Below the pieces are notes generated by a model. It saw only the letters and a program-made list of their open reading frames with translations. It made no database searches and was not told where the DNA came from. Shown here piece by piece: positions 6,074 to 21,926 of a stretch of DNA of 43,126 nt; position 1 is the stretch's first letter, and every line of letters begins with the position of its first letter. The stretch is from Eubacteriales bacterium (lineage in GTDB: Bacteria; Bacillota; Clostridia; Oscillospirales; Butyricicoccaceae), in the NCBI GenBank assembly GCA_030524285.1, contig JAUNGQ010000013.1:1-43126 (forward strand), written 5' to 3'. A program made the position numbers and the translations under genes.

Positions 6074-7084
6074 ATGGATTTGTTAAGGATCGGCGTTGTA
6101 GGTTGCGGCGCGATTGGACGTGAACATATTGCCCGTATTACGAATAAGATTTCGGGCGGCAGAGTTGTTGCCGTATCGGATCTTTATATTGAAGGAGCAC
6201 ATAAGGTAGGCGATCCGCTTGGTGCAACTGTATACAGCAACAGTACAGATCTGGTCAATGACCCGGATGTAGATGCCATCATCTGTACCACACCGGGCTT
6301 TGCACATCAGGAAACCGTGATGCAGGCGCTGGAGGCCAAAAAGCCGATTTTCTGTGAAAAGCCGCTGACTACCTCTGCGGAAGAATCACTTGAGGTTGTG
6401 GAAGCGGAAATGGCAGGCGGCAAGCGTCTGATTCAGGTAGGCTTTATGCGTCGGTATGATAGGTCGTATATGCAGCTGAAGGAAATGATTGACTCCGGCG
6501 ATTTTGGCAAGCCGCTGTATCTGCGCTGTACCCACTGGAATCCGGAGGTAGACAACGGCTATACCACCGAGATGGCTGTACATGATACTGCAATCCACGA
6601 GATCGATATCATTCACTGGCTGGTTGGCGACGAATATGAATCCGCGCAGATTATGATGCCGCGTCAAACCAGCAATAAGAACCCGGAACTGATGGATCCG
6701 CAGCTGATGTATATTAAATGTAAGTCCGGCATTGTAGCAACGATCGAAGTCTTTGTCAACTGCCGCTTTGGCTATGATATCAATTGTCAGGTTGTCTGTG
6801 AGGAGGGCGTCATTGATTTGCCGAAGCCATCCATGCCGATTTACCGCAAGGCCGGCGGACAGACCACGCCGATTGAACAGAATTGGAAGAACCGTTTTGT
6901 ACATGCCTATGACAGAGAAATTCAGCAGTGGGTTAACTCGACGCGCAAGGGTGTCGTGGATGGCCCGAATGCATGGGATGGCTTGATTGCCAACGTCACA
7001 GCGGATGCACTGGTTCGTGCACAGACCAATGGCGGAGCGGTGGAGCCGGTTCAGGTTGGCCCGCGCCCGGATTTCTATAAGTAA
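6074..7084 (+). CDS. iolG: Inositol 2-dehydrogenase (Bacillus IolG type)
   Basis: A 336-residue Gfo/Idh/MocA oxidoreductase that oxidises myo-inositol to 2-keto-myo-inositol with NAD. The Rossmann motif GVVGCGAIG is at residues 7-15, the EKP motif at 95-97 carries the catalytic Lys96, and Asp171 and His175 match the catalytic pair of Bacillus subtilis IolG. Strings such as QVGFMRRYD, HEIDIIHWLV and VNCRFGYDI are shared with that enzyme from memory. Start at 6074 follows GGAGG; an in-frame ATG at 6053 lacks a ribosome site. The gene is monocistronic, with its own promoter and a strong terminator. A second, more distant inositol dehydrogenase is at 20901, so the two may differ in isomer preference. 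Confidence 0.92.
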   Translation: MDLLRIGVVGCGAIGREHIARITNKISGGRVVAVSDLYIEGAHKVGDPLGATVYSNSTDLVNDPDVDAIICTTPGFAHQETVMQALEAKKPIFCEKPLTTSAEESLEVVEAEMAGGKRLIQVGFMRRYDRSYMQLKEMIDSGDFGKPLYLRCTHWNPEVDNGYTTEMAVHDTAIHEIDIIHWLVGDEYESAQIMMPRQTSNKNPELMDPQLMYIKCKSGIVATIEVFVNCRFGYDINCQVVCEEGVIDLPKPSMPIYRKAGGQTTPIEQNWKNRFVHAYDREIQQWVNSTRKGVVDGPNAWDGLIANVTADALVRAQTNGGAVEPVQVGPRPDFYK

Positions 7085-7100
7085 TTTTGATATCAAATAG

Positions 7101-7137
7101 AAAAATACCGCAGGATGTTATGTCCTGCGGTATTTTT
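7101..7137 (+). terminator. Terminator after iolG
   Basis: Perfect 15-bp stem (AAAAATACCGCAGGA with its complement) and a 7-nt loop ending in a T-run. The symmetry allows use in both directions. Confidence 0.9.
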
Positions 7138-7195
7138 GTGGAACGGATGATAAGGCGCCCTCTTGGGGGGAGGCAATCCGCGCCAACAGCGCGGT

Positions 7196-8065
7196 TTATA
7201 TTGGATATTTCCGAAACAGCGTCGGTGAAATGCCGACATTTTTCTGGAAGCTGTGGATGAAGTTTTCCTCGCTGTTGTAGCCGGTATGGTAGGCGATTTC
7301 CTTTACTGTCATACGGGTAGAGGTGAGCATATGCTTTGCTTTGTCAATCCGGCGCAGCACGATATATTCATAGGGAGAATATCCGGTATGCGCCTTAAAT
7401 TCGCGCGAGAAATGTGATTGGCTCCAATTGACTGCTTCTGCGATATCTTTGACGGTAACCGATTCATAGAGATGTGCGTTCATATACCGGATGGACTGTG
7501 TAATGCGGTCATTTTCCGATGTTTGCGGCTGAGTCTCGGTCAGCAACAACATGCACAGCAGCCGGTGCAGCAGCTGGGAACAGGCAGCCTCGCTCATGCG
7601 TTCGCCGGAAGCGCAGCTGCTCAGCAGGGAATCAAGCAGCCGGAGTACCTGAGGGTAGGAGGTAGTCGAAAAAACATGCTTTCCGCCGCGGGAACGCAGA
7701 ATGCGCTGATAGAATGGTCTGGAATTTAAACCATTGAACAGCAGCCAGATGAATTCCATCCCGTCCGATGCACGGTACTGATACGGCTGCTGGCAGTCAA
7801 ACAGGACAAGCTGTCCACGGGTTGCCAGCATGTTGATATGATTGATATTCAGCTCCAGTGCGCCGTCCAGCACAAGAAACAGCATGATATGATTGTTATG
7901 ATCGCTTTGTAGTGCGATTTCCGATTGATGGCTGAAGGAATACGTGTGATCACAGAAATAATGTCCACAACGCGTGGGATAATAAAACAGCTCCCGCGCG
8001 AGCGAAGATGGCGTAAAAAAGTAGCGTTCGGAAATCTGATGGACACCGGCCTCAGGAATCAGCAT
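7196..8065 (-). CDS. AraC family transcriptional regulator
   Basis: 289 residues with an N-terminal cupin-like domain (residues about 15-140, including the HHIM-like barrel strand region) and a C-terminal double helix-turn-helix (about 190-288) containing the motifs IAEAVNWSQSHFSREFKAHTG and IAYHTGYNSEENFIHSFQK, each characteristic of AraC/XylS. It is transcribed divergently from the sugar isomerase gene at 8326 across 260 bases that hold promoters for both genes, which suggests that it controls that gene. It is not a close duplicate of the AraC protein at 5030. The effector is unknown; an inositol-related ligand is inferred from position. Confidence 0.87.
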   Translation of the reverse strand: MLIPEAGVHQISERYFFTPSSLARELFYYPTRCGHYFCDHTYSFSHQSEIALQSDHNNHIMLFLVLDGALELNINHINMLATRGQLVLFDCQQPYQYRASDGMEFIWLLFNGLNSRPFYQRILRSRGGKHVFSTTSYPQVLRLLDSLLSSCASGERMSEAACSQLLHRLLCMLLLTETQPQTSENDRITQSIRYMNAHLYESVTVKDIAEAVNWSQSHFSREFKAHTGYSPYEYIVLRRIDKAKHMLTSTRMTVKEIAYHTGYNSEENFIHSFQKNVGISPTLFRKYPI

Positions 8066-8159
8066 AGGGCTTCACATCCTTCCATTGGATTTGCGATACG
8101 AAGAAAGGGCTTCACAGTGGATGCCGTGCGATAGCGTCCACAGAAAATCCTTTGTCCTT

Positions 8160-8188
8160 ATGGTAGCAGGCGGAAAAAAGAAATGCAA
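8160..8188 (-). promoter_or_regulatory. Candidate promoter of the AraC gene at 7196-8065
   Basis: On the minus strand TTGCAT and an extended TGC-TACCAT are 17 bases apart, about 95 bases before the start codon. Confidence 0.4.
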
Positions 8189-8231
8189 GAGAAAATAGCA
8201 GGATTTATCAGTGAATGCGCAAATTGTATCA

Positions 8232-8260
8232 TTGGCAGATCGTGCATTGTACTGTATAAT
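8232..8260 (+). promoter_or_regulatory. Sigma-A type promoter of the isomerase gene
   Basis: TTGGCA at 8232-8237 and TATAAT at 8255-8260 with a 17-base spacer. The nonamer GCAAATTGT just upstream (8219-8227) also occurs at 5961-5969 in the iolG promoter. Confidence 0.75.
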
Positions 8261-8325
8261 AATTGTAACAACAGGGAACCGTCGGGAGAGACGGAAACCA
8301 GATTTGAATCAAGGAGGAACATATT

Positions 8326-9246
8326 ATGAAAATTGCATTTGACGTTGACGTTCTTGCGAAGCAGATGAGCATCAATGATATGGTGCACAAGGTAGCTGAC
8401 TGGGGCTACAAGTACATTGAGCAGTCCCCGCATCCGCGCATCAACCCGTTCTACAAGCATCCGCTGTTCTCCAAGGAAGCAGAGGCTGAGTACCGTCAGG
8501 CACTGAAGGAAACCGGCGTTGAAATTTCTTCTTTCATCGTTGTATACCGTTGGTCCGGCCCGACTGAGGAGCAGCGTCAGCACGCAGTTGCGAACTGGAA
8601 GAAGATCATCGAGATCGCTGTAAACATGGGCGTACCGGTAATCAATACCGAGTTCTCCGGCGATCCGAACCAGCAGGAAATCTGCAATGGCATGTGGTTC
8701 CGTTCCATGGAAGAGCTGCTGCCGATCATCGAGCGCGAAGGCCTGCGTGTTGAGGTTCAGTCCCATCCGTATGACTTCTGTGAGCTCAACGATGAGGCTT
8801 GCGATCTGGTTAAGTCCTTCCGTTCCAAGAATCTGGGTTATGTATACTCTGCATCTCATGGCTTCTTCTACGATCAGGGCAAGGGTGACGTTCGTCATAT
8901 GCTGAAGTATGCTGGCGATGAGCTGACCCACGTTCTGTTTGCAGATACCTACAACCAGACCAAGGACTGCCGTTACATCCTGAATCCGCCTTGGCTGAAC
9001 CAGCGCGGCGCTGCTGACGTTACCATTCATCAGCACACTGCTATGGGCGAAGGCGAAGTTGATTTCCCGGGCATCTTCGAGACCCTGCGTGAAATGGACT
9101 TTGCAAACAAGCAGCTGAAGCCGGACGCTCCGAAGGTAGGCGGCGACAACATTGCATGTGTATCTTACTTCGGCTTCCCGGAGAAGATGGACAAGCAGGC
9201 TCCGGAAGCTCGCGAGATCATTGAGCGCGAACTGCTGGGCAAGTAA
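8326..9246 (+). CDS. Sugar phosphate isomerase/epimerase family protein (IolE/IolI/IolH-like TIM barrel)
   Basis: 306 residues with the alternating strand/helix pattern of the xylose isomerase-like TIM barrel. Likely metal-site strands are INTEFSG (about 105-111), VEVQSHPYDF (about 143-152), and the HxAxGEGEVDF segment near residues 240-250, which is the usual end-of-barrel signature. The family includes inosose dehydratase IolE, inosose isomerase IolI and IolH. It is clearly different from the genuine IolE at 19885, so inosose isomerisation or epimerisation is a reasonable guess. The codon use (strong preference for CTG, AAG, GTT) resembles the highly expressed genes of the island. It has its own promoter and terminator. 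Confidence 0.8.
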   Translation: MKIAFDVDVLAKQMSINDMVHKVADWGYKYIEQSPHPRINPFYKHPLFSKEAEAEYRQALKETGVEISSFIVVYRWSGPTEEQRQHAVANWKKIIEIAVNMGVPVINTEFSGDPNQQEICNGMWFRSMEELLPIIEREGLRVEVQSHPYDFCELNDEACDLVKSFRSKNLGYVYSASHGFFYDQGKGDVRHMLKYAGDELTHVLFADTYNQTKDCRYILNPPWLNQRGAADVTIHQHTAMGEGEVDFPGIFETLREMDFANKQLKPDAPKVGGDNIACVSYFGFPEKMDKQAPEAREIIERELLGK

Positions 9247-9277
9247 TTGTACTAATTTTAGAATAATCGGAATGATT

Positions 9278-9313
9278 ATCCCTGCGGCATCCCGTGCCGC
9301 AGGGATTTTTTTG
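9278..9313 (+). terminator. Terminator after the isomerase gene
   Basis: Stem ATCCCTGCGGCA with its complement, 5-nt loop, followed by seven T. Confidence 0.92.
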
Positions 9314-9374
9314 TCGTCAAGATGTTGGGAAACGATACAAATTAGATGTATGTGTGGAATATTTTGAAATGCTG

Positions 9375-9403
9375 TTGCATTTGTACAAAAGGAATGGTAT
9401 AAT
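9375..9403 (+). promoter_or_regulatory. Promoter without an obvious gene
   Basis: TTGCAT and TATAAT separated by 17 bases. No coding sequence follows; two adjacent hairpins and a terminator-like hairpin do. Confidence 0.55.
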
Positions 9404-9409
9404 TTGTGA

Positions 9410-9588
9410 CGCAAGAAGTCCAGATGACGTTTATAACATCAAGAGGTCTAGACGAAATGATGTTATACAGCAGGAAACAGGAGCCTGCTGATGTCATTTT
9501 CCTTCCTTGTGAAAGTCAAACTTTCCCTTTTGTTGTTGTATGATGGAAAAACTGCCGTGTTTTCAGGAGAATACGGCAGTTTTTCTAC
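9410..9588 (+). ncRNA. Candidate small structured RNA
   Basis: Starting about seven bases after a good -10, the transcript would fold into ATAACATCA/TGATGTTAT (9433-9441 with 9458-9466), then CAGCAGG/CCTGCTG (9468-9474 with 9484-9490), and end at AAAAACTGCCGT/ACGGCAGTTTTT (about 9547-9584) with a T-tract. The total would be about 175 nt. I do not recognise a known RNA family. It may instead be a long leader, or a terminator belonging to an unseen peptide. Confidence 0.35.
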
Positions 9589-9794
9589 GTTTTGGATAAG
9601 TTTTAAAAAAAGGATGATGTCGTTCAGAGGGAGTGGTATATATAGATATACTGTTGATGAAATGTTGTTGAATTTTAGAATATTTAGGTGAAAAAATAAA
9701 AAAATACCCGTTAATTTACAAAATAGTGCGGTATTTGTGTGTATTTTTTGCTTATATCGTGGGTTTCGATGAAAAAACAAAAGGCGATTTTTTG

Positions 9795-9819
9795 TGTAAC
9801 ATGCATAAAAAATGTTACA
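9795..9819 (+). promoter_or_regulatory. Inverted repeat, candidate operator of the symporter gene
   Basis: TGTAACAT and ATGTTACA form a perfect 8-bp dyad with nine bases between, ending 31 bases before the -35 of the symporter promoter. The position suits an activator. Confidence 0.4.
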
Positions 9820-9850
9820 GAATTTTTAACGGAAACATGGTGTACCAATC

Positions 9851-9879
9851 TTGAGAAAGATACAGACGTCTGCTATAAT
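9851..9879 (+). promoter_or_regulatory. Promoter of the sodium/solute symporter gene
   Basis: TTGAGA and TATAAT with a 17-base spacer, which itself contains AGACGTCT. A leader of about 105 bases follows, with a hairpin at 9894-9916. Confidence 0.7.
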
Positions 9880-9990
9880 TATACATGGAGTTTAGCTGTC
9901 TCATTGGGAGGCAGCTGTATTTCGCGCCTTTCGGTGATCCGGGACACTTGAAAAGGTGTGGAGAGAGTTTAGAAAAGGAGATCAAAATCT

Positions 9991-11619
9991 ATGTTAACTG
10001 TAATTGAATTTGTAGTTTTTACAGTGTTTGTAGCGATTCTTTCCGCGTATAAGACACGTGGCGAGCAGCTGGACACTGAGGAAGGCTACTTCGTTGCAGG
10101 CCACAGCTTGCCGGGCATCGTTATTGCAGGTTCCCTGATGATGACGAACCTGTCGGCAGAGCAGCTGGTCGGCACCAACGGTCAGGCATTTTCCGGTTCG
10201 ATGGCTACCATGGCTTGGGAAGCCACGTCTGCATTTGCACTGGTCATTCTCGCGTTTGTATTACTGCCGAAGTTCCTGAAGGGTAATATTTCTACCATTC
10301 CGCAGTTCTATGAAATGCGCTATGATACCTTTACCATGCGCATGTTCTCTATTATGTTTCTGTTTGCATATGTCATCACCATGCTGCCAACCATCCTGTA
10401 TTCCGGTTCTGTAGCTCTGGAAAAGATCTTTGACATTCAGCAGATTTTTGGCATTAGCTACTTTATGGCAATTCTGGTCGTTTGCTTTGCAACCGGTCTG
10501 ATTGGTATGGCATATTCCGTATTCGGCGGCCTGAAGGCAGTTGCATATTCTGATACCATCAACGGCGTTGGCCTGCTGATCGGCGGCTTTATGGTTCCGG
10601 TTCTCGGCTTTATTGCACTGGGACAGCTGGACGGCGGCGGATTCCTGGCAGGCATCAAGCATTTTGCTGTTGCTACACCGGAAAAGATGAATGCATGGTC
10701 CGCACCGAACGCAATGGCACCGTATATCCCGTGGCCGCTGCTGTTTACCGGTATGTTTGTAAATAACATGTTTTACTGGGCTACCAACCAGTCCATCATT
10801 CAGCGTTCTCTGGGCGCCAAGAATCTGGCAGAAGCGCAGAAGGGCGCTATCTGGGCTGGCTTCTTCAAGTGCCTCGATGTATTTGTAATCGTTATCCCGG
10901 GCATCATCGCTTACCAGTTGATGGAAGCTGGTGCGCTGCAGTCCTCCGGCTCTGGCGCAGCATTCGACGGCGATGCTGCTTATCCGCTGCTGGTTCTGCA
11001 CGTTATGCCGAAGCCGCTGATGGGCTTCTTCGCAGCTGTTATGTTTGGTGCAATCCTGTCTTCCTTCAACTCTGTATTAAATTCTTCTTCCACGATCTTC
11101 TCCCTGAATATCTGGAAGCCGATGTTTGGCAAGGATGCAGATGCAAAGAAGGTTGTAAAGGTTGGTCAGATCTTCGGTCTAATCGTTGGTATTCTGGCTA
11201 TCATCATTTCTCCGTTTATTATGTATTTCGGTTCTGGCATCATGAACTTCATCAACGAGTGCTGGGGTCTGTTCTCCATGCCGATTCTGTGCGCTGTACT
11301 GTTCGGTATGCTGAATAAGAATGTTTCCTCCATCGCTCCGAAGATTGGTGTTCCGGTACATATCGTTCTGTATGCAATCGGCTACTTCTGTGTATTTGAT
11401 AAGATGCATTATCTGTACTGGGTATTCATTTGCTTCCTTGTTCAGTGTGTTATCTACTTTGCTTGTGCAAAGTTTGCACCGCGCAAGACTCCATTCGAGA
11501 TTCCAAACATACCGCAGATCGATCTGGTTCCGTGGAAGACCGGCAAGGTTTGGGCTACTGTTGGTATCCTGGTAGTTGTTGTCATGTACGTTGTTTTCTC
11601 CCCGCTGGTATTGGGATAA
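9991..11619 (+). CDS. Sodium/solute symporter (SSS family), probable inositol uptake
   Basis: 542 residues, very hydrophobic, with about 13 to 14 membrane helices. The features YFVAGHSLPGIVIAG and the signature region GLIGMAYSVFGGLKAVAYSDTING-like (about residues 168-192) match the SLC5/SSS family and its sugar-transporting members. It would bring a polyol or sugar into the cell with sodium. Position among the iol genes, a single strong promoter with an upstream dyad and a strong terminator all fit an inducible inositol transporter, but the substrate is inferred. The start follows AAAGGAG with normal spacing. A sodium gradient for uptake could be supplied by the Rnf complex encoded at 32700-37797 if that complex pumps sodium. 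Confidence 0.85.
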   Translation: MLTVIEFVVFTVFVAILSAYKTRGEQLDTEEGYFVAGHSLPGIVIAGSLMMTNLSAEQLVGTNGQAFSGSMATMAWEATSAFALVILAFVLLPKFLKGNISTIPQFYEMRYDTFTMRMFSIMFLFAYVITMLPTILYSGSVALEKIFDIQQIFGISYFMAILVVCFATGLIGMAYSVFGGLKAVAYSDTINGVGLLIGGFMVPVLGFIALGQLDGGGFLAGIKHFAVATPEKMNAWSAPNAMAPYIPWPLLFTGMFVNNMFYWATNQSIIQRSLGAKNLAEAQKGAIWAGFFKCLDVFVIVIPGIIAYQLMEAGALQSSGSGAAFDGDAAYPLLVLHVMPKPLMGFFAAVMFGAILSSFNSVLNSSSTIFSLNIWKPMFGKDADAKKVVKVGQIFGLIVGILAIIISPFIMYFGSGIMNFINECWGLFSMPILCAVLFGMLNKNVSSIAPKIGVPVHIVLYAIGYFCVFDKMHYLYWVFICFLVQCVIYFACAKFAPRKTPFEIPNIPQIDLVPWKTGKVWATVGILVVVVMYVVFSPLVLG

Positions 11620-11662
11620 AAGAAAATCCGTACAAATTGTTAATGTCCGGTCCCGGAAAATT

Positions 11663-11696
11663 AAGAGGCTTCTCATACGAGAGGCCTCTTTTTTTA
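11663..11696. terminator. Bidirectional terminator between symporter and deacetylase genes
   Basis: A 12-bp stem starting AAGAGGC with one G-T pair and a 4-nt loop, followed by seven T on the plus strand and an AATTTT stretch on the minus strand. The two convergent genes share it. Confidence 0.85.
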
Positions 11697-11697
11697 T

Positions 11698-12576: not shown

Positions 12577-12734
12577 AAAAACATTCCTTTCTTTTAAAAT
12601 CCCTTTTATTATATCATAAAATGCGTGAAAAAGAAGGAATGTTGTCATATCGTAACGCAATTGTAAGAAATCTGAAAGAATCTATCATGATAACCATTGG
12701 ATAGAATCTGAAAAAATCCGTATCAACCAAAGCC

Positions 12735-12754
12735 TGCCTCTTCGAGGGAGCCTT
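12735..12754. repeat. Short palindromic repeat copy
   Basis: CCTGCCTC and GAGGGAGCC around TTC, an imperfect relative of the hairpin at 54-75. Confidence 0.45.
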
Positions 12755-12789
12755 AAAAAAACAGGAGCCTGCAAAAAGCAGGCCCCTGT
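12755..12789 (-). terminator. Terminator after iolD
   Basis: Stem ACAGGAGCCTGC with its near-complement around AAAAA; on the minus strand it is followed by seven T. It lies 35 bases past the iolD stop. Confidence 0.88.
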
Positions 12790-12823
12790 GAGCGATTTGG
12801 TTTTGCGTTGTAGGCGCTCGTAA

Positions 12824-14800
12824 TTAATAATGACGAGCCTCGTACAGGTGATCCTGCAACTTCTTGTAAGCTGCCTGAACCTCCGGCTTTTCGGATACAG
12901 AAGCAACGCCTACACGCCACCAAGCTTCCCACTCCTTGGACATGGACTTCGGCAGAACCTTCATGTCGATCAGGGTGGAAACCGTCTGCTTCTTGGAATC
13001 TTCCAGAGCAGCTGCCAGTTCTTCCATAGTCTTTACGCGGTAAACCTTGCAGCCGTAAGCTTCAGCAACACCAGCGTAGTCGATGTTCATTGCCGGACCG
13101 AGATCGCAGCCATCGTACGGAGTACCTGGGATATGCATGTTCTTCTCAGTGGTACGGGACTTGTTGCCCTGACCAACCTGCAGGTTGTTGATGCAGCCAT
13201 AAGCAGCGTTGTCGAACAGGCAAACGTTGATCTTGTAGCCATACTGGATGGAGGCGATCAGCTCGGAGTGCAGCATATCGAAGGAACCGTCACCGCACAT
13301 TGCATAAACTTCCTGATCCGGGCAAGCGATCTTGCAGCCGTAAGCGCCAGCAACTTCGTAACCCATGCAGGAGTAGCCGTACTCGCAGTGATAGGTGTTC
13401 GGGGTGCGAGCTCTCCACAGTGCCTGCAGGTCACCTGGCAGGGAACCGGCAGCGCCAACGCAGATTGCGTCCGGAGCGATGTTCAGGTTGATGTAACCCA
13501 GAGCAGCGGTCTGTGTCAGCTTGGAGCCGATGGACTCGATGTAATGCTCAACAGCGCGGCGGTTGCCGTCCTGAATTTCCGGAACATAGGACTCAGCGTC
13601 AATGTACTCGGTGTGATCCATACGGTCAACGTCAGCCCACCATGCATCCTGCAGTCTCTTGATTTCTGCGGCATACTCGTCGGAGGTATGATAGCCGCCC
13701 AGAGCGTCGATCTCAGCCTCGATAGCAGTCAGAGCCTCGTTTGCGTCAGCAACTACCGGATAAGCGTCCATCTTCAGGCACTGGAACTCGGACGGGTTGA
13801 TGTTGACAAACTTAGCATTTACGTCATACAGCCACTTGGAAGCAGTAGTGAAGTCAGTGTAACGGGTACCAACGCCGATCACAACGTCGCAGTCATGTGC
13901 AAATGTGTTTGCACACTCGGTACCGGTGATGCCCAGACCACCGAGGCTCAGCGGATGGGTCCATTCGATTGCGGACTTGCCGGCCTGAGTTTCGCCAAAT
14001 GCGATGCCATACTTTTCTGCAAATGAACGGAATACCTTGTGTGCTTCTGCATAGCGAACACCGCCGCCGCAGATCAGAAGCGGCTTCTTTGCGTTCTTGA
14101 TGATTTCAGCCGCTTTCTTCGCTGCCTTCTTGGTAGCCGGACGGCGCTCGATGGTCCATACGCGCTTCTTGAAGAAGTCTACCGGGTAATCATAAGCTTC
14201 ACCCTGTACATCCTGCGGGATGGATACAGCAACTGCGCCACAGTTGCCCGGATCGGTCATTACGCGGAATGCAGAGATCATATCGGTCATGATCTGCTCC
14301 GGACGGTTAACACGGCCCCAGTACTTTACAACAGCCTGGAAGGAGTCGTGTGCGGAAATGGTCAGATTCTGCGGCTGCTCCATCTGCTGGAGTACCGGAT
14401 CCGGCTGACGGGATGCATAAACATCGCCCGGCATCAGCAGAACCGGAATGTTGTTAGCGGTAGCGGTTGCAGCAGCGGTGATCATGTTGCAGGCGCCAGG
14501 ACCTACGGAAGAGGTGCATACAAATGCCTGCTTACGGCGCAGCTGGCGGGAAAATGCAACTGCTGCCAGAGCCATGCCCTGCTCGTTTTTACCCTGATAA
14601 ACTTCCAGATCCTTGATTTCCTGCTCAATACCATTGCAGTAGCCAACGCAGTTGCCGTGGCCCGGGATCATGAAGATACCGCGGATAAACTTCTGTTCTA
14701 CTTCGTTGCCGTCCATATCAATATAGTTAACATACTGATTCTCCAGGAAGCGGATGCAAGCCTGGCTGGTAGTCAGACGGACTGTCTCCATGTGTTTCAT
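12824..14800 (-). CDS. iolD: 3D-(3,5/4)-trihydroxycyclohexane-1,2-dione hydrolase
   Basis: A 658-residue thiamine diphosphate enzyme that hydrolyses the cyclic diketone from the IolE step to 5-deoxy-D-glucuronate. The catalytic Glu73 lies in GKNEQGMALAA, the central domain spans about 220-365, and the cofactor motif begins GDGSF at 503-507 and ends with Asp530-Asn531. Length fits the family (about 640). Start at 14800 follows AGGAGG by ten bases. It lies 85 bases downstream of iolB on the same strand, so iolB-iolD probably form one operon ending at the terminator at 12755-12789. Its use of favoured codons suggests high expression. Confidence 0.95.
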   Translation of the reverse strand: MKHMETVRLTTSQACIRFLENQYVNYIDMDGNEVEQKFIRGIFMIPGHGNCVGYCNGIEQEIKDLEVYQGKNEQGMALAAVAFSRQLRRKQAFVCTSSVGPGACNMITAAATATANNIPVLLMPGDVYASRQPDPVLQQMEQPQNLTISAHDSFQAVVKYWGRVNRPEQIMTDMISAFRVMTDPGNCGAVAVSIPQDVQGEAYDYPVDFFKKRVWTIERRPATKKAAKKAAEIIKNAKKPLLICGGGVRYAEAHKVFRSFAEKYGIAFGETQAGKSAIEWTHPLSLGGLGITGTECANTFAHDCDVVIGVGTRYTDFTTASKWLYDVNAKFVNINPSEFQCLKMDAYPVVADANEALTAIEAEIDALGGYHTSDEYAAEIKRLQDAWWADVDRMDHTEYIDAESYVPEIQDGNRRAVEHYIESIGSKLTQTAALGYINLNIAPDAICVGAAGSLPGDLQALWRARTPNTYHCEYGYSCMGYEVAGAYGCKIACPDQEVYAMCGDGSFDMLHSELIASIQYGYKINVCLFDNAAYGCINNLQVGQGNKSRTTEKNMHIPGTPYDGCDLGPAMNIDYAGVAEAYGCKVYRVKTMEELAAALEDSKKQTVSTLIDMKVLPKSMSKEWEAWWRVGVASVSEKPEVQAAYKKLQDHLYEARHY

Positions 14801-14885: not shown

Positions 14886-15701
14886 TTAATAACCGGTCGG
14901 GCACTTCCAGATGTGGTCGTTCGCATCGTCTGCCAGCAACCACAGATGCTCCTCGTCGTCAATACGGGTCTTGTCCCACGGATCGCCCGGCAGATGACGG
15001 ATGCCCCATGCATAGCAGCAGGAATAGCCCGGTGCAGTAACCTGGGAATGCATCTTATCGGTAATCAGGGCAGCGCCGTTGTGATGGGTTTCATACAGCT
15101 CGCCGTTGCCCCAGCCTGCGCCGAAGCCCATCGGCTTGTCGAAGCGGTAGAAATAAACCTCCGGCTGCGGGTGATGATGCGGCGGATAAGAGGTCCACTT
15201 GCCCGGCAGGTTAACAACCTCGCCCAGAACCATGTTGGAATACGGAGCGATATCCAGATCGAAGCAGGTGCGGACGTCACGCTTGCAGCAGCCCTGCAGT
15301 TCTCCGTTGGCGCTGCGTGCCCATGTGTCGGTATCTTCCGGACGGAACAGCTTGTTCGGGAACTCCGGAGCCACCTTGTCATTGAGGGTCTTCTGAATGT
15401 AAACATTCGAGGTACCCTTTGCGGTGATGACAATTTTGGTTCCCTTGTGAACCAGCAGGCACCACGGGTTGTAGTCGAACGGATTCGGGCGAACCATATC
15501 AACACTCTCATCGTCCCATGCCATGTTTACGTCGCCGTCAAACAGCAGGCATGCAACTTCTTTGTCAGCCTCTTCGATGGTGTAGGTGTCGCCAGCTTCC
15601 ATAACCAGCAGTGCAACATCCATCATACCGGCCTTGCCTTCTCCTTCATCAAGACGCAGATATTCATTATAACCGCGCTTGACATCCTTGTCCATGTACA
15701 T
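14886..15701 (-). CDS. iolB: 5-deoxy-glucuronate isomerase
   Basis: 271 residues, the usual IolB length. It converts 5-deoxy-D-glucuronate to 2-deoxy-5-keto-D-gluconate. The C-terminal cupin contains PPHHHPQPEVYFYRFDKP-like sequence (about residues 173-190), with the His cluster and Glu that bind the metal, and the GWGNGE loop. Start at 15701 follows AAAGGTG by about 11 bases; an earlier GTG overlaps that site. It is first in the iolB-iolD unit, expressed from a consensus-like promoter followed immediately by a 29-base palindrome that could be an operator. Confidence 0.95.
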   Translation of the reverse strand: MYMDKDVKRGYNEYLRLDEGEGKAGMMDVALLVMEAGDTYTIEEADKEVACLLFDGDVNMAWDDESVDMVRPNPFDYNPWCLLVHKGTKIVITAKGTSNVYIQKTLNDKVAPEFPNKLFRPEDTDTWARSANGELQGCCKRDVRTCFDLDIAPYSNMVLGEVVNLPGKWTSYPPHHHPQPEVYFYRFDKPMGFGAGWGNGELYETHHNGAALITDKMHSQVTAPGYSCCYAWGIRHLPGDPWDKTRIDDEEHLWLLADDANDHIWKCPTGY

Positions 15702-15761
15702 TGTAAAACACACCTTTCTCTATGCCCGGAAAATAGGGCAGATCCTTTGAAGTACAATGAC

Positions 15762-16454: not shown

Positions 16455-16471
16455 GACAGGCAAAAAATATG

Positions 16472-16566: not shown

Positions 16567-17322
16567 TCATTCCCACATAATACGTACATTGTGCGCACGA
16601 CAAAACTCAATAAATTTCGGGGCGGGCTTCTGGTCTGTGATCAGGGTAGAAATATCCTGCAGACGGCAGAAGGTTACCGTTGCGTCGTGCCCCAGCTTGG
16701 AGCTGTCTGCAATGAGAATAACATGGGAGGAATGAGCAACGACACCACGCTTGATTTCTGCTTCCAGAAACGTGGTATTGCTCATGCCGGATTCCACGGT
16801 GACGCCGGTAGCGCTGAGGAATGCCTTGGAAATGCGCAGGTCTGAAAGAGCCTGCTGTGCGGCAATGCCTACGAAAGAGCTGGTAGACGGGTTAAACGCA
16901 CCGCCGAGGGAAATGAGATTCACACAGTCATATTTTGCTGCCTCTACCATAGCCGGCAGGGAATGGGTGACAACAGTCAGTTTCATACGCGGCGGCAGAT
17001 GGCGCAGGACATTGACAGCGGTAGAACCCGAATCAACGAAAATGGTATCACCTTCATGAATTTCACGCACAGCAAGCCGGCCGATATGGTCTTTGGCAGA
17101 CGGATTCAGGCTGGAGCGGACTGGCAGAGGCATGACATCCTCTGGAAGTACCGCAGTTACACCGCCGTATACCTTTGTAATATGACCACGGGCTTCCAGT
17201 TCATTCAGATCGCGTCGGATCGTATTTTTGGAAACGCCAAAGACCTCACATAGCTCGTCGATGGAAACAGTTTTCTTGGACAATACATATTCTTCTATTG
17301 CATTGAGTCTGCTGATTTTCAT
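16567..17322 (-). CDS. DeoR family transcriptional regulator (IolR-like candidate)
   Basis: 251 residues. The N-terminal DeoR helix-turn-helix spans about 5-58 with VSIDELCEVFGVSKNTIRRDL and RGHITKVYGG. The C-terminal sensor domain (about 75-230) includes IGRLAVREI, DTIFVDSGSTA and the LSATGV motif typical of the DeoR sugar-phosphate-binding domain. Bacillus IolR belongs to the same family, and its ligand is phosphorylated DKG. The gene diverges from the split transketolase genes and likely controls them and itself. Start at 17322 follows AGCAGG; an upstream frame of 26 codons lacks a ribosome site. Assignment as IolR is inference from context. Confidence 0.88.
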   Translation of the reverse strand: MKISRLNAIEEYVLSKKTVSIDELCEVFGVSKNTIRRDLNELEARGHITKVYGGVTAVLPEDVMPLPVRSSLNPSAKDHIGRLAVREIHEGDTIFVDSGSTAVNVLRHLPPRMKLTVVTHSLPAMVEAAKYDCVNLISLGGAFNPSTSSFVGIAAQQALSDLRISKAFLSATGVTVESGMSNTTFLEAEIKRGVVAHSSHVILIADSSKLGHDATVTFCRLQDISTLITDQKPAPKFIEFCRAHNVRIMWE

Positions 17323-17346
17323 AATGGAAACCTGCTTTCTTGGAAC

Positions 17347-17374
17347 AATAACTACAAAACACAAAGTTATTATA
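17347..17374 (-). promoter_or_regulatory. DeoR gene promoter and overlapping dyad
   Basis: The minus strand has an extended -10 TGGTATAAT (hexamer at 17369-17374). A dyad AATAACT/AGTTATT (17347-17353 and 17365-17371) overlaps it, as expected for autorepression. No strong -35. Confidence 0.5.
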
Positions 17375-17557
17375 CCAGAAAATAGAACAAAAGGAAACAA
17401 AAAAATCAGAATAATTGAGTAAATTTTGAGTGAATTTTTTCATGAGTTCCTGCAATCATTACGTGAAGTAAAGGTGACTTCTGCGAAGACTTCTGGAGAG
17501 ATGTTGGGAAGCTTTTTTTATGATATGAAAAAAACTATAAAAATAGGCGGCTGAGCA

Positions 17558-17586: not shown

Positions 17587-17682
17587 CAAAGAAAGTGTGG
17601 CATGGTGCGCAGTTGGACAAAAAAGTTCTGCCTGCAGCTGTGCTGACAATTCTTTGAATTAAGGAATAGGTAGGTGTATTCA

Positions 17683-18537
17683 ATGCAGAAAGCAGAAAAG
17701 ATGCAGGCTCTCCGTGAATTCGCAGCTGAAATCCGAGTTGAGACCCTGAAGACCATCGGTTCGCTTGGCTTTGGACACGTCGGCGGCTCAATGTCTATTG
17801 TTGAGGCGATGGCTGTCCTGTATGGCGATGTAATGAAGGTTGATCCGAAGAACCCGCGTTGGGAAGGTCGTGACTGGTGTGTACTGTCCAAGGGACATGC
17901 AGGCCCGTGCGCATACGCAACCCTCGCTCTGAAGGGCTTCTATGATCTGGAGCAGACCCGCACGCTGAACAAGCCGAGCACAAATTTCCCGTCCCATACG
18001 GACCGTACCAAGACTCCGGGCGTTGACCTGACAACCGGTTCTCTGGGCCAGGGCATGTCCACCGCTACCGGCGCTGCTCTGGGTCACAAGCTCGACGGCA
18101 AGGATAACCGTGTTTTCGTATTCGTAGGCGATGGCGAGTGCGATGAAGGACAGGTTTGGGAAGCTGCTCAGTTCGCAGCACATTACAAGCTGGACAACCT
18201 GACCTGCTTTGTAGATGACAACAAGAATCAGCTCGACGGTGCAGTTGCAGACGTTATGTCCCATGGCAAGGGCCTCGGCGCGAAGTTCGATGCTTTTGGC
18301 TGGAATGTAATCAACGTTGAAAACGGCAACGATGTTGAGCAGGTTTATGATGCTGTTCAGGAAGCTCTGACTGTTAAGGGTGTTCCGACTGCAATCATCC
18401 TGAACACCACAAAGGGCAAGGGCGCTACATTCGCAGAGCCGTCTGCCGCTCACAGCTCTCAGCCGTCTCCGGAGCAGTGGGAAGAAGCAATTGCTGCAGC
18501 AGAGGCTGAGCTGGCTGCTGTTAAGGCTGCAAAGTAA
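17683..18537 (+). CDS. Transketolase N-terminal subunit (two-subunit type)
   Basis: 284 residues, corresponding to the thiamine diphosphate-binding half of transketolase. Motifs: GHVGGS at 31-36 (canonical GHPG), SKGHAGPCAYA at 69-79, GSLGQG at 119-124, and the cofactor motif from GDGE (149-152) to DDNKNQLDG (about 178-186). Start at 17683 follows AGGTAGG by eight bases; an upstream in-frame GTG is unlikely. It is paired with the C-terminal subunit 14 bases downstream and controlled from a region shared with a DeoR regulator. Two-subunit transketolases act in pentose phosphate exchange, and related pairs act on unusual ketoses such as sulfofructose. Here the setting among iol genes suggests a ketose from inositol, which is inference. 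Confidence 0.93.
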   Translation: MQKAEKMQALREFAAEIRVETLKTIGSLGFGHVGGSMSIVEAMAVLYGDVMKVDPKNPRWEGRDWCVLSKGHAGPCAYATLALKGFYDLEQTRTLNKPSTNFPSHTDRTKTPGVDLTTGSLGQGMSTATGAALGHKLDGKDNRVFVFVGDGECDEGQVWEAAQFAAHYKLDNLTCFVDDNKNQLDGAVADVMSHGKGLGAKFDAFGWNVINVENGNDVEQVYDAVQEALTVKGVPTAIILNTTKGKGATFAEPSAAHSSQPSPEQWEEAIAAAEAELAAVKAAK

Positions 18538-18551
18538 GGAGGGCATACGAA

Positions 18552-19520
18552 ATGAGTTTTACTTTAATTGGAAAGCATGAAAAGGATAGCCGTGCTTGCC
18601 GTGATGCTTATGTACAGGCTATGACCGAGCTGATGGAAGCAGATCCGTCTGTTGTACATGTTGACTGTGACCTGAAGGGCTGCATCAACACAAAGAAGCT
18701 GGATAAGTTTGGCCGCAGCATCAATGCAGGTATTGCAGAAGCAAATGCTATGGGTATCGCAGCTGGTCTGACCGCTACCGGCAAGAAGGCATGGATCCAT
18801 TCCTTCGGCTGCTTCTCTTCCCGCCGTGCATTTGACCAGGCTTTCATGTCTGCTGCATATGCAAAGCTCGGCGTTAAGGTTCTGGGTTCTGACCCTGGCG
18901 TATGCGCTGCATACAACGGTGGTACCCATATGCCGTTTGAGGACTGCGCTCTGTATATGTCCGTTCCGGATGCAATCGTGATTGATCCGGTTGACTATGC
19001 TCAGGTTTACTGCCTGACCAAGAAGCTGACTGCTGTAGAAGGCCGTCTGTCTTACATGCGTATGATCCGTAAGGGCTTCACCACCGTTTACGCTGACGGT
19101 TCCGATTTCGAGATCGGCAAGGGCGTTACCCTGAAGGAATCTGACAATGACGCAGCTACCATCATCGCTTCCGGCATCATGGTTGATGAGTCCCTGAAGG
19201 CTTATGAGATGCTGGCAGAAGAAGGCATTGCTGTTCGCGTCATCGACATGTTCACCTGGAAGCCGATCGATGAAGAGTTGATCGTGAAGGCTGCTAAGGA
19301 GACTGGCGCTATCGTAACTGCTGAGAACCATAACTGCACCTGTGGTCTGGGTTCTGCTGTTGCACGCGTTCTGTCTGCTCAGTGCCCGACTCCGGTTGAG
19401 ATGGTTGGCGTACATGACCAGTTTGGTCAGGTAGGCGCACAGAACTTCCTGCAGGAAGCTTACAAGCTGACCGCAGAAGAGGTTGTTGCAAACGTCAAGA
19501 AGGTTATTGCAAGAAAGTAA
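18552..19520 (+). CDS. Transketolase C-terminal subunit (two-subunit type)
   Basis: 322 residues, carrying the pyrimidine-binding and C-terminal domains. The catalytic Glu63 lies in GIAEANAMGIAAGLT, the FSSRRAFDQ segment is at 88-96, and the loop GGTHMPFED at 123-131 holds the conserved His126. At position 127, where ordinary transketolases have Gln in the GxTHQ loop, this protein has Met. The C-terminal domain begins near residue 195 (IIASGIMVDESLKA) and contains TAENHNCTCGLGSAVA. The ribosome site AAGGAGGG precedes the ATG. Together with the N-subunit it should form the active enzyme. The altered loop and genomic setting leave its acceptor and donor uncertain. Confidence 0.92.
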   Translation: MSFTLIGKHEKDSRACRDAYVQAMTELMEADPSVVHVDCDLKGCINTKKLDKFGRSINAGIAEANAMGIAAGLTATGKKAWIHSFGCFSSRRAFDQAFMSAAYAKLGVKVLGSDPGVCAAYNGGTHMPFEDCALYMSVPDAIVIDPVDYAQVYCLTKKLTAVEGRLSYMRMIRKGFTTVYADGSDFEIGKGVTLKESDNDAATIIASGIMVDESLKAYEMLAEEGIAVRVIDMFTWKPIDEELIVKAAKETGAIVTAENHNCTCGLGSAVARVLSAQCPTPVEMVGVHDQFGQVGAQNFLQEAYKLTAEEVVANVKKVIARK

Positions 19521-19537
19521 TTTCCTAATGGTACATC

Positions 19538-19573
19538 AGAAGCCGTCCCCTGTCTTGGGAGCGGCTTCTTTTT
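19538..19573 (+). terminator. Terminator after the transketolase genes
   Basis: AGAAGCCG-CCC stem with GGG-GCGGCTTCT and a T-run, 18 bases past the stop. Confidence 0.85.
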
Positions 19574-19666
19574 GCTGTTCTTTCACAGCGATATGGAACA
19601 CACAACCAGCTGCATGACTGCACCAAAAAGGCATATTTTCTGCTTTCCAAACCTGCGCAAAATCGA

Positions 19667-19720
19667 TCAATTATTTTATCAAAAGATAAAACACATGTAC
19701 TGAAATGAAAAAATAATTGA
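19667..19720 (+). promoter_or_regulatory. Nested inverted repeats upstream of iolE
   Basis: TCAATTATTTT (19667-19677) and AAAATAATTGA (19710-19720) form an 11-bp perfect inverted repeat across 32 bases; inside the left part is a second dyad TTTTATC/GATAAAA (19674-19680, 19685-19691). The set ends 18 bases before the iolE -35, so it is a likely binding region for one or more regulators. Confidence 0.5.
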
Positions 19721-19738
19721 CCAACTTGCACAAAACAT

Positions 19739-19767
19739 TTGACAAATACGTTCCTATCCTTTATGAT
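19739..19767 (+). promoter_or_regulatory. Promoter of iolE and possibly iolG2
   Basis: A perfect TTGACA -35 and TATGAT -10 with a 17-base spacer, giving a leader of about 110 bases. The rest of the 364-base gap before iolE holds the previous terminator and the dyads. Confidence 0.8.
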
Positions 19768-19884
19768 AAAAGATGTAGGAGAAACTGCCTATAATCTGCT
19801 CTGCGATATGAAAATTTAGGAGAGCTTTTCATATCATTTTCCTGAGCGGGGCAGGTGCAATTAAAACATGGAGGTGTTGTGATT

Positions 19885-20784
19885 ATGTTCACAAACAAGG
19901 ATATCAAGCTGGGTATCTGTCCGATCGGCTGGACCAATGACGATATGTGGGATCTGGGCGATGAAAATACGTTTCAGCAGTGCATTTCTGAAATGCGTCT
20001 GGCGGGCTTTACCGGCTGTGAGGTTGGCCACAAATACCCGTCCGATGTGAAAGAGCTGAAGGAAGCATTGGATCTGCGCGGTATGACGATCGCTTCCAAG
20101 TGGTTCTCTTCTTTCCTGGGCACGAAGCCGTATGAAGAGACCTTTGAAGAATTTAAGAAGGAAATCGAATACCTTTCTTATGCCGGCGCAACTGCAATCA
20201 ATATTTCCGAGCAGTCCTACTCAATTCAGGGTAATCAGGATCTGTCCATCTTTAAGAACAAGGCACTGTTTAACGATGCGGAATTTATGCAGATGTGCGA
20301 GGGCCTGAACAAGCTGGCTGAGTATGCAAAGAGCAATGGCATCCGTGCATGCTTCCATCATCATATGGGTACCTGTGTACAGACACTGGAGGAGACAGTT
20401 CGTATGCTGGAAAATACCTCTGATGATTTGCTGCTGTGCTATGATACCGGTCACTGGACCTTCTCTGAGGTAGACCCGCTGGCTATTCTGGAGAAGTTCC
20501 CGAACAGAATCGGTCATGTACATCTGAAGAACATGCGTAAGCCGGTTCGCGATCAGGCGATCGAGGAGAGCTGGTCCTTCCTGAAGTCCGTTCGTAACGG
20601 CTGCTTCACCGTACCAGGCGATCCGGAAGGCTGCGTAGATTTCCCGGCAGTTCTGAAGAAGCTCGACGAGATCGGCTACGAAGGCTGGATCATGGTTGAG
20701 GCTGAGCAGGACCCGGCTAAGGCTAACCCGTTCAAGTATGCGAAGATGGCTTACGAGTACATCACTGCAGAGATGGCAAAGTAA
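19885..20784 (+). CDS. iolE: Inosose dehydratase
   Basis: 299 residues, the usual length. It removes water from 2-keto-myo-inositol to give the diketone used by IolD. The N-terminal GICPIGWTNDDMWDLG pattern, AGFTGCEVGHKYP, the SKWFSS strand and the HHHMGTCVQTLEETVRML and CYDTGHWT segments are hallmark IolE sequence within a xylose isomerase-like TIM barrel; the late Glu in WIMVEAEQD is a likely metal ligand. The start at 19885 is set by GGAGGTG. A hairpin and 116 bases separate it from the second inositol dehydrogenase gene; the two probably share a transcript. Confidence 0.95.
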   Translation: MFTNKDIKLGICPIGWTNDDMWDLGDENTFQQCISEMRLAGFTGCEVGHKYPSDVKELKEALDLRGMTIASKWFSSFLGTKPYEETFEEFKKEIEYLSYAGATAINISEQSYSIQGNQDLSIFKNKALFNDAEFMQMCEGLNKLAEYAKSNGIRACFHHHMGTCVQTLEETVRMLENTSDDLLLCYDTGHWTFSEVDPLAILEKFPNRIGHVHLKNMRKPVRDQAIEESWSFLKSVRNGCFTVPGDPEGCVDFPAVLKKLDEIGYEGWIMVEAEQDPAKANPFKYAKMAYEYITAEMAK

Positions 20785-20819
20785 TCGCAGGAAAGTACAT
20801 AACAGTTTGTGAATGAAAA

Positions 20820-20856
20820 TTGGATACCTTGCGGAAGAAGAGCTGCGGGTATCCAA
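20820..20856 (+). other. Intercistronic stem-loop between iolE and iolG2
   Basis: TTGGATACC and GGTATCCAA form a perfect 9-bp stem with a 19-nt loop that can pair further (GCGG/CTGC). It is followed only by CTTTCT, a poor T-tract, so it may be a processing or partial termination site rather than a strong terminator. Confidence 0.5.
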
Positions 20857-20900
20857 CTTTCTAACCAATATAATAAGTATAGACAAGGAGAGAACAGGTC

Positions 20901-21926
20901 ATGGCAAATTTAAAGTTTGGCGTAGTAGGTTGCGGTCGTATCGGTAAGCTGCACATCAACAATCTGCTGAACAACATCGACGGCGCTGAGGTTGTAGCAG
21001 CCGCTGATCCGATGCTGGACAAGTCCGGCGCACGTGAGTGGCTGGCAGCAAGAGGCATCAACAATGCTTCTACTGATTATATGGATGTTATCAATAATCC
21101 TGATGTTGATGTCGTAATGGTTTGCTCTTCCACCGATACCCATTGTGAGGTTTCTATGGAAGCAGTCAAGGCAGGTAAGCACGTATTCTGCGAGAAGCCG
21201 ATTGATTATGATATCGACAAGATCAAGGCGCTGCTGGCTCTGGTGGAAGAGAAAGGTGTCAAGTTCCAGGTTGGCTTCAACCGTCGCTTTGACCACAACC
21301 ACAAGGCAGTTGCCGATGCAGTCAAGGCTGGCAAGATTGGCGATCCGCATTACATCAATGTATCCTCCCGTGATCCGGAGCCGCCACCGGCATCCTACGT
21401 TGCAGTTTCCGGCGGTATCTTCTATGATATGATGATTCATGACTTTGACATGGTTCGTTATCTGTCCGGTTCTGAGGCTGTTGAGGTTTCCGCTGTTGGT
21501 TCCTGCCTGGTTAATCCGAACCTGCAGGAAGAGTCTGGTATTCCGGATGTTGATACCGCAGTTGTTACCATGAAGATGGCAAACGGCGCAATCGCTACCA
21601 TCAACAACTCCCGTCAGGCAGTATACGGCTATGATCAGAGAGTAGAAGTATTCGGTTCCAAGGGCATGGCAGCAGATAACAATGATCTGAACTCCACCGC
21701 AGTCATCACCACGGTTGACGGCGCTGTTTCCGAAAAGCCGAAGTGGTTCTTCCTGGAGCGTTACAACGACGCATTCATCGAGCAGATCAAGTACTTCATC
21801 GATTCCATCGTAAACGACAAGCCGACTGTTGTTGGCGCATATGATGGTCTGCGTCCGGTACTGATGGCTGCTGCAGCAACTGAATCCTGCCGTAACGGCG
21901 GCGTTTGGGTAAAGGTTGCTGAATAA
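20901..21926 (+). CDS. iolG: Inositol 2-dehydrogenase, second subfamily
   Basis: 341-residue Gfo/Idh/MocA oxidoreductase. Rossmann motif GVVGCGRIG at 7-15, EKP at 98-100 with catalytic Lys99, and the pair Asp176/His180 in GGIFYDMMIHDFD. The segments SSRDPEPPPASYVAVSGG and VGFNRRFD are typical of the inositol 2-dehydrogenase subfamily found in many soil and gut bacteria, which is distinct from the Bacillus IolG type encoded at 6074. It may prefer scyllo- or D-chiro-inositol, or be the principal myo-inositol enzyme with the other paralogue doing something else; sequence alone does not decide. AAGGAG lies before the ATG. Codon bias indicates high expression. Confidence 0.88.
   Translation: MANLKFGVVGCGRIGKLHINNLLNNIDGAEVVAAADPMLDKSGAREWLAARGINNASTDYMDVINNPDVDVVMVCSSTDTHCEVSMEAVKAGKHVFCEKPIDYDIDKIKALLALVEEKGVKFQVGFNRRFDHNHKAVADAVKAGKIGDPHYINVSSRDPEPPPASYVAVSGGIFYDMMIHDFDMVRYLSGSEAVEVSAVGSCLVNPNLQEESGIPDVDTAVVTMKMANGAIATINNSRQAVYGYDQRVEVFGSKGMAADNNDLNSTAVITTVDGAVSEKPKWFFLERYNDAFIEQIKYFIDSIVNDKPTVVGAYDGLRPVLMAAAATESCRNGGVWVKVAE

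Follow-up and report, generated by a model that had tools for sequence, protein, structure and literature searches.

The 43,126-nucleotide contig JAUNGQ010000013.1 (assembly GCA_030524285.1), from an Eubacteriales bacterium of the Butyricicoccaceae and referred to here as the window, carries an island of myo-inositol catabolism (iol) genes into which a split transketolase is set. The window is a complete contig of its source metagenome-assembled genome (MAG), which is 73% complete and 1.56 Mb in size. Genes were called with NCBIfam equivalog cut-offs and Pfam, for ten main island proteins and then for eleven more window proteins; Pfam coverage was 21 proteins (one without a match), the remaining open reading frames (ORFs) lying outside the scan. 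Two iol genes are on the minus strand, encoding the trihydroxycyclohexanedione hydrolase IolD (12824..14800; TIGR04377, 821.7 bits, cut-off 715) and IolB, the 5-deoxyglucuronate isomerase giving 2-deoxy-5-keto-D-gluconate (DKG) (14886..15713; PF04962, 129.9 bits; TIGR04378, 63.8 bits, cut-off 205). Two more are on the plus strand, encoding the inosose dehydratase IolE (19855..20784; TIGR04379, 368.2 bits, cut-off 290) and the inositol 2-dehydrogenase IolG (20901..21926; TIGR04380, 431.6 bits, cut-off 355). All four had been named in an earlier, sequence-only reading of the window, and we found IolD, IolE and IolG above their equivalog cut-offs and IolB by Pfam only. We rejected the idea that the window IolB is aberrant: its low score is not a defect of the protein, because four IolBs from same-order loci with the DKG kinase IolC also reached just 66.5-102.4 bits against the NCBIfam cut-off of 205.

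The gene positions confirmed that the split transketolase and a divergent DeoR gene are located between iolB and iolE, as had been noticed at first sight. The DeoR/GlpR-type regulator (16567..17400, minus strand; PF00455, PF08220) faces away from two adjacent genes for separate transketolase subunits, namely the thiamine pyrophosphate-binding N-terminal subunit (17674..18537, plus strand; PF00456, 180 bits) and the C-terminal subunit (18552..19520, plus strand; PF02779/PF02780). The best PDB match of both subunits was a split transketolase, with 6YAK as the best solved relative of the N-terminal subunit (233.5 bits) and 6YAJ as that of the C-terminal subunit (234.6 bits). The records closest to the window transketolase came from Eubacteriales MAGs (98-99% identity), and Candidatus Butyricicoccus stercorigallinarum, Butyricicoccus, Agathobaculum and Intestinibacillus were also close.

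The sequence-only reading had further stated that the window lacks a DKG kinase, a DKG-phosphate aldolase and a malonate semialdehyde dehydrogenase. This was borne out, as the 21 window proteins scanned with Pfam included neither a sugar kinase nor a class II aldolase or aldehyde dehydrogenase; for IolA, this absence of an aldehyde dehydrogenase from the scanned window proteins is the whole result, no search having been aimed at IolA in any genome. The source MAG encodes four PfkB kinases, none of which reached the IolC cut-off (TIGR04382, 300 bits), the best scoring 106.5 bits. No PF01116 aldolase was found in it either, an absence that says little alone because such aldolases were found in 36 of 36 relatives and are missing here too. 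Since the MAG is incomplete, relatives were used as the test.

In the order sample (394 genomes), iolD was above its cut-off in 37 genomes, of which 23 carried the transketolase without IolC, 11 IolC only, three both and none neither (Fisher p = 4e-7 for transketolase versus IolC, uncorrected for descent). The window-type transketolase, set in this survey at 72% identity or more, was present in 22 of the 23 IolC-less genomes, the other being G355 of a third family, with 50% identity. Among the 37, it occurred in all 25 genomes of the window's family (f1) and in none of family f23 (best match at most 49%); IolC above the cut-off was seen in 14 of the 37 genomes (11 of f23, plus G221, G259 and G336 of f1). 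In all 23 IolC-less genomes the transketolase lies within the 20-kb region around iolB/iolD. Counted by locus, 49 regions comprised 29 with transketolase only, nine with IolC only, none with both and 11 with neither within reach. Even the three genomes with both enzymes kept them apart, IolC and the aldolase IolJ at L017, L018 and L048 and the transketolase at L043, L035 and L049. The 11 regions with neither were five f23 loci, each with IolC on another contig of its genome, and six f1 loci (L026, L027, L028, L033, L039 and L040) whose genomes have the transketolase elsewhere. An IolJ-type class II aldolase beside the iol genes was found at none of 31 transketolase loci. Members of the DeoR protein cluster occur in 23 of the 49 regions; of these, one (L048) is an IolC locus and the other 22 carry the transketolase.

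Because the order survey started from the window and could be biased by it, we also sampled 398 genomes across the phylum. All 17 further iolD-positive loci were read: 15 carried IolC only, two the transketolase only (L222 and L230), and none both or neither; the 15 IolC homologues were called by similarity at 36-68% identity, the weakest being L227 at 36%. Among the 87 genomes of f1, iolD was present in 46, the window-type transketolase in 52 and IolC in five, all of which also had the transketolase. Two iolD-positive MAGs, G397 and G403, gave no transketolase match, and their iolD contigs measure just 4.6 and 5.8 kb. We then read the 80 nearest of 303 transketolase loci in named genomes, where iolD was found at 40, any of iolB, iolD, iolE or iolG at 56, and IolC at none. 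These 80 loci and L218-L234 were mapped by tblastn, and other regions by codon-scored ORF calls, a caller that fails on low-GC genomes. The pairing of iolB/iolD with the transketolase that the sequence-only reading had singled out recurs in different genera and, in divergent form, in different families of the phylum. A search for IolC elsewhere in the genome found none above the cut-off in 41 of the 46 iolD-positive f1 genomes, the window's included.

The transketolase itself is altered at its substrate pocket. The window C-terminal subunit carries H461->D, D469->N and S385->C (E. coli numbering). In the pocket alignment, H461->D and D469->N were present in all 33 C-terminal subunits of types A, B, C, D and X, in which GSDPG and NGGTHMP-like segments replace the THAG and EDGxSH of ordinary split transketolases. 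The Ser position holds Cys in types A, B and X and in G355, and Ser in type C and the other D types. Of the two pocket arginines, the second is kept in 33 of 33 subunits and the first in 29 of 33, the others having K, C, C and G. At the four positions compared of the canonical phosphate-orienting RSFHR, the window has Asp for His and Cys for Ser and retains both Arg. The 33 sequences together with L246 and L250 formed one clade on a long branch with an ultrafast bootstrap (UFBoot) value of 100 for the bipartition, and a Ser-to-Ala change was seen within this clade in L250 only. A support value of 22 for the clade was set aside as an effect of re-rooting.

Two sets of C4 genes accompany the transketolase in relatives. 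First, four operons of different families and with four gene orders (L031, L196, L222 and L230) combine iol genes and the transketolase with a type II glyceraldehyde-3-phosphate dehydrogenase (GAPDH), a phosphoglycerate kinase (PGK), a malic enzyme and a LarA homologue. With TKN and TKC for the two transketolase subunit genes, the orders are iolE-iolB-iolD-iolG-like-GAPDH-PGK-LarA-TKN-TKC-malic enzyme in L031 (G355), iolB-iolD-iolE-iolG-malic enzyme-LarA-GAPDH-PGK-TKN-TKC in L196 (a Clostridiaceae MAG), GAPDH-PGK-TKN-TKC-iolB-iolD-iolE-iolG-LarA-PfkA-malic enzyme in L222, and GAPDH-PGK-TKN-TKC-iolB-iolD-malic enzyme-LarA-PfkA in L230. In all four of these D-type operons, GAPDH exceeded the type II phosphorylating GAPDH cut-off and PGK and malic enzyme passed their Pfam cut-offs. 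The LarA homologues scored 548.9, 601.2, 599.3 and 604.6 bits, above the equivalog cut-off of the nickel-dependent malate racemase family (NF052593, 500). The nearest structures to the L031 GAPDH and PGK were 2CZC and 2CUN, both presumably of archaeal origin. Loss of an arginine in PGK was dropped as a sign of a new substrate, as the archaeal PGK 2CUN has the same HQG segment. Malic enzyme was also found in 11 of the 29 transketolase loci, and in a record of Intestinibacillus massiliensis, in the window's family, the order is iolB-DeoR-transketolase-malic enzyme-iolE (L169). Being general in f1, malic enzyme was not used as a marker there, and we give it weight in the four D-type operons alone.

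Second, B-type clusters have the order iolD-iolB-Fe-alcohol dehydrogenase-CoA-transferase-HBD-(iolG)-TKN-TKC, where HBD is a 4-hydroxybutyryl-CoA-dehydratase homologue (we abbreviate the Fe-alcohol dehydrogenase FeADH and the CoA-transferase CoAT). Five of the 29 transketolase loci hold the full set, and further copies, either complete or cut short, lie at L092, L095-L097, L099, L102, L105, L109-L111, L113 and L114. HBD matched PDB 1U8V over its full length (residues 1-480, 746 bits), an entry titled gamma-aminobutyrate metabolism dehydratase/isomerase and presumably the 4-hydroxybutyryl-CoA dehydratase of Clostridium aminobutyricum. The alignment conserved the C-x3-C and H...C segments of 1U8V, which we take to be the Fe-S ligands. 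HBD homologues were found in 42 of 46 iolD-positive f1 genomes versus 3 of 41 others, and the three iolD-negative carriers (G330, G398 and G399) have iol remnants or a cut iolD. The same held within g2, a genus of f1, where HBD was present in 2/2 iolD-positive versus 0/5 iolD-negative genomes (p = 0.048). Many f1 HBDs, including that of the source genome (L198), are a paralogue in a general locus, which in L198 consists of FeADH and HBD followed, as read from the sequence, by a likely CoAT, thiolase, enoyl-CoA hydratase and 3-hydroxyacyl-CoA dehydrogenase. The known route from 4-hydroxybutyrate to butyrate uses 4-hydroxybutyrate dehydrogenase, a CoA-transferase and AbfD. B-type clusters resemble this route in their enzyme types and in the full-length HBD match, and differ from it in the linkage to iol and transketolase genes and in the predicted substrate, 3,4-dihydroxybutyrate.

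A scheme can be drawn from the gene content and linkage, the replacement of IolC and IolJ, the altered pocket and the family assignments described above; every substrate, stereochemistry and flux in it we infer. IolG, IolE, IolD and IolB would convert myo-inositol to DKG. Read from its other end, DKG is 5-deoxy-D-fructuronate and has the same D-threo 3,4-diol as D-fructose and D-xylulose, so the split transketolase could transfer the C5-C6 ketol unit of DKG to glyceraldehyde 3-phosphate, giving xylulose 5-phosphate and leaving (R)-3-hydroxy-4-oxobutanoate (malate semialdehyde). From established enzyme chemistry, this C4 product should be the R form, which is a carboxylate analogue of D-glyceraldehyde 3-phosphate and would oxidise to D-malate. 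In one branch, the archaeal-type GAPDH and PGK homologues would take malate semialdehyde to D-malate with a gain of ATP, the LarAH6-type racemase would produce L-malate, and malic enzyme would yield pyruvate; the racemase would be needed because D-malate must be converted before a malic enzyme of the L-malate type can act. PfkA, encoded in L222 and L230, might contribute by recycling the fructose 6-phosphate that arises from xylulose 5-phosphate. In the other branch, FeADH, CoAT and HBD might carry the C4 acid by way of 3,4-dihydroxybutyryl-CoA to acetoacetyl-CoA or crotonyl-CoA, in the direction of butyrate.

Altogether, we consider it likely that the island encodes a kinase-free inositol pathway in which the transketolase cuts DKG, with the C4 acid consumed through one or the other of these branches in relatives. 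The kinase-free branch had been proposed from the window, and the replacement of IolC together with the linked genes supports it, short of proof, at the level of sequence. The C4 product 3-hydroxy-4-oxobutanoate had been predicted before any neighbour genes were read, and it gains independent support from the malate- and 4-hydroxybutyrate-type genes in the same operons. We lean, less firmly, towards a wider reading in which many Bacillota cut DKG to C2 and C4 without a kinase and use the malate/ATP and butyrate branches interchangeably, which would make this the inositol-to-butyrate route of Intestinibacillus and give LarAH6/Mar2 a physiological role.

A number of observations weigh against the kinase-free pathway, and they are gathered here together with the explanations that they would favour. 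Because of shared descent, the genomes counted are not independent of one another. Malic enzyme is found in f1 generally (77 of 87 genomes), with p = 0.18 for an association with iolD. In the A-type loci of the window's genus (L053-L060), the transketolase has no linked C4 gene, and the window contains none; the source genome does have malic enzyme and 4-hydroxybutyryl-CoA-dehydratase genes, unlinked to the transketolase. A terminator-like stem appears to follow the window transketolase, and a simple mismatch scan gave no clear operator shared between the transketolase and iol promoters. The question of common regulation, which the sequence-only reading had tied to an IolC-IolJ-IolA set elsewhere, was in this way answered in part, no operator common to the transketolase and iol genes being found. 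The H461->D change also removes a positive charge close to the substrate's distal end, so it is hard to foresee how it would act on a carboxylate.

The best-surviving alternative, which we nevertheless consider unlikely, is that an ordinary pentose phosphate enzyme lies in the island by chance and that an unrecognised kinase and aldolase elsewhere handle DKG. Eight f1 genomes have the transketolase without iolD above the cut-off. In three of them some iol sequence is present: L079 has kept the transketolase, malic enzyme, DeoR and iolB, the iolD of L081 is cut by the contig end, and L082 holds an iolD fragment. In the other five, all of g2, the pair stands alone with no iol gene called around it (L078 and L083-L086), and these standalone copies are the strongest evidence that the transketolase has another job too. 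In addition, nine iolD-positive relatives that are 91-100% complete (G241, G389, G054, G084, G110, G124, G172, G193 and G318) showed no other transketolase. The enzyme may therefore work in the pentose phosphate pathway too, perhaps as its main role. No iol gene was seen at 24 of the 80 nearest loci; these 24 include the standalone g2 copies, several short contigs (down to 3.2 kb), and Lachnospiraceae and other loci with different neighbours. PF01116 aldolases, one component of a hidden route, were found elsewhere in 36 of the 37 genomes. As for the hidden kinase, a divergent IolC among PfkB kinases of transketolase genomes (160-208 bits to the IolC model; 12 regions) was considered and rejected: in nine of the 12 regions the kinase looks like a fructokinase, with GH32 and phosphotransferase system (PTS) genes beside it (Pfam-confirmed in L263 and by similarity to L263 in the other eight). 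The remaining kinases are unexplained, L267 and L268 lying in other contexts and L273 resisting mapping. A pentose phosphate role would also leave unexplained why no locus has both IolC and the transketolase, why the transketolase operon takes the usual place of IolC in two of 17 phylum loci, why one genome has extra iol-linked transketolase copies, and why malate and 4-hydroxybutyrate genes lie in the same operons.

It is quite improbable, in our judgement, that the transketolase belongs to a broad acidic-ketose clade and uses another C6 keto acid or sugar, with the iol genes feeding an isomer other than DKG. Clade members do occur in clusters without iol genes (L093, L156, L205, L206, L255 and L258, the L258 sequence not being in the tree). 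Neighbours that can be read from the sequence at clade members without iol genes include a TRAP transporter, a glycyl radical enzyme and PTS genes. The window IolB is under its equivalog cut-off, which counts for this reading, but the IolBs of IolC-type loci score as low, and with IolD, IolE and IolG above their cut-offs DKG is the simplest product to expect from IolD and IolB. That the C4 genes are plain malate and 4-hydroxybutyrate metabolism next to a pentose-recycling transketolase and a normal inositol pathway is very improbable, for although malic enzyme and the HBD paralogue also occur outside iol clusters, the same gene set is kept in four differently ordered operons, HBD tracks iolD within g2, and a normal pathway would require IolC and IolJ, which were not found there.

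The kinase-free cut of DKG by a transketolase has parallels in known systems. In the apiose pathway, the transketolase acts on apulose 4-phosphate, a donor phosphorylated by a kinase; the inositol island would share with it the recruitment of a split transketolase to a dedicated sugar pathway and differs in that no sugar kinase was found among the scanned window proteins. In the sulfo-transketolase pathway for sulfoquinovose, according to the published account (PMC11659671), the split transketolase SqwGH takes a C2 ketol from an unphosphorylated acidic C6 ketose and passes it to glyceraldehyde 3-phosphate, so that xylulose 5-phosphate is formed and an acidic C4 aldose is left. Its authors also report that RSFHR has become RAFDR in the sulfofructose transketolase, a change that they linked to the different substrate (PMC11659671). 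The inositol-linked transketolases have the same His-to-Asp pocket change, and their predicted donor is of the same kind, a ketose that carries an acidic end group and no phosphate. They differ in having Cys or Ser (Cys in the window) where the sulfo-enzyme has Ala, in a donor that would be the carboxylate DKG, made from inositol by IolG, IolE, IolD and IolB, and in a C4 product that a transketolase presumably could not split again.

The island shares the upper half of the canonical inositol pathway (IolG/E/D/B/C/J/A), down to DKG, and differs in that the DKG kinase and DKG-phosphate aldolase were not found in or beside the cluster and in a predicted cleavage to C2 + C4 rather than C3 + C3. 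An IolC-dependent route is exemplified by Anaerostipes, which converts myo-inositol to propionate via IolBCDEGJ and a CoA-transferase (OxcT) (Bui et al. 2021, PMC8355322). Among the open-licence papers listed in our literature searches, none put forward a transketolase step for inositol breakdown, and the one paper listed for the predicted C4 acid deals with carnitine. Sulfoquinovose breakdown is a known case of a transketolase cutting an acidic ketose; as far as we have seen, its use for inositol, with two C4 branches, is new.

If correct, the pathway could explain how some gut bacteria convert inositol to butyrate. A 2025 review states that some gut bacteria make butyrate from myo-inositol, naming Dysosmobacter welbionis and Intestinibacillus massiliensis (unpublished data), and describes the characterisation of this pathway as incomplete (PMC12482443). 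The iol-transketolase cluster of I. massiliensis (L169) therefore makes the butyrate question directly testable. The pathway would also provide a role for the malate racemase LarAH6/Mar2, which was assayed as such and whose role in vivo its discoverers left open (PMC7583248), and it would extend the logic of the sulfo-transketolase to a common plant polyol. A large survey counted IolBCDE as core factors (PMC9430895); inositol users without iolC may therefore be missed by such counts.

Some further loci vary the arrangement of the transketolase and its neighbours. A second type of cluster with no iol gene called, in L205 (about 5953-14663), L206 and L258 (G035, G336 and G070), combines FeADH, HBD, CoAT and a zinc alcohol dehydrogenase with a split transketolase from the same clade and with genes reading as a glycyl radical enzyme and its activase. 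In a Lachnospiraceae MAG (L177, 9929-20846), the transketolase, CoAT and HBD are found together with the type II GAPDH, PGK and a cut LarA-like gene, so that both C4 branches occur in one place; no iol gene was found within its 20.8 kb. Erysipelotrichaceae MAGs (L183 and L190-L194) have the transketolase pair followed by an IolB homologue with no iolD called within reach, and L190 also has genes reading as PTS and class II aldolase. In L175, a protein that reads as RpiB/LacB-like (6337-6993) occupies the usual iolB place between iolD and the transketolase and may be an alternative 5-deoxyglucuronate isomerase. In L053 (G354, 8059-13229), iolD is duplicated in tandem next to a single iolB, and each copy shares 83% identity with the window iolD.

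The remaining island genes lie at lower coordinates than iolD. They encode an IolG-like inositol dehydrogenase of the Gfo/Idh/MocA type (6053..7084, plus strand; NF052679, 453.4 bits, cut-off 540; PF01408/PF02894), an AraC-type regulator (7196..8065, minus strand; PF12833, PF00165), a xylose-isomerase-like TIM barrel that is possibly an inosose isomerase (8326..9246, plus strand; PF01261, 132 bits) and a sodium:solute symporter probably responsible for inositol uptake (9991..11619, plus strand; NF007790, 645 bits, cut-off 401; PF00474). Homologues of the AraC-type regulator adjoin the TIM barrel and the IolG-like gene in L056, L058 and L059. The TIM-barrel protein is 98-100% identical in these three genomes of the genus and 87% identical in L221 of another family, where it adjoins an iol cluster with IolC, while its IolG-like neighbour shows 74-79% identity in L056/L058/L059 and 52% in L221, a pattern of either unusually strong conservation or recent transfer. 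The eleven further window proteins were identified by Pfam as Rnf-type proteins, histidine kinases, an S-layer-type protein, an AraC regulator and others, the Rnf-type electron transport genes being located at 32577-37797, about 11 kb downstream of the island.

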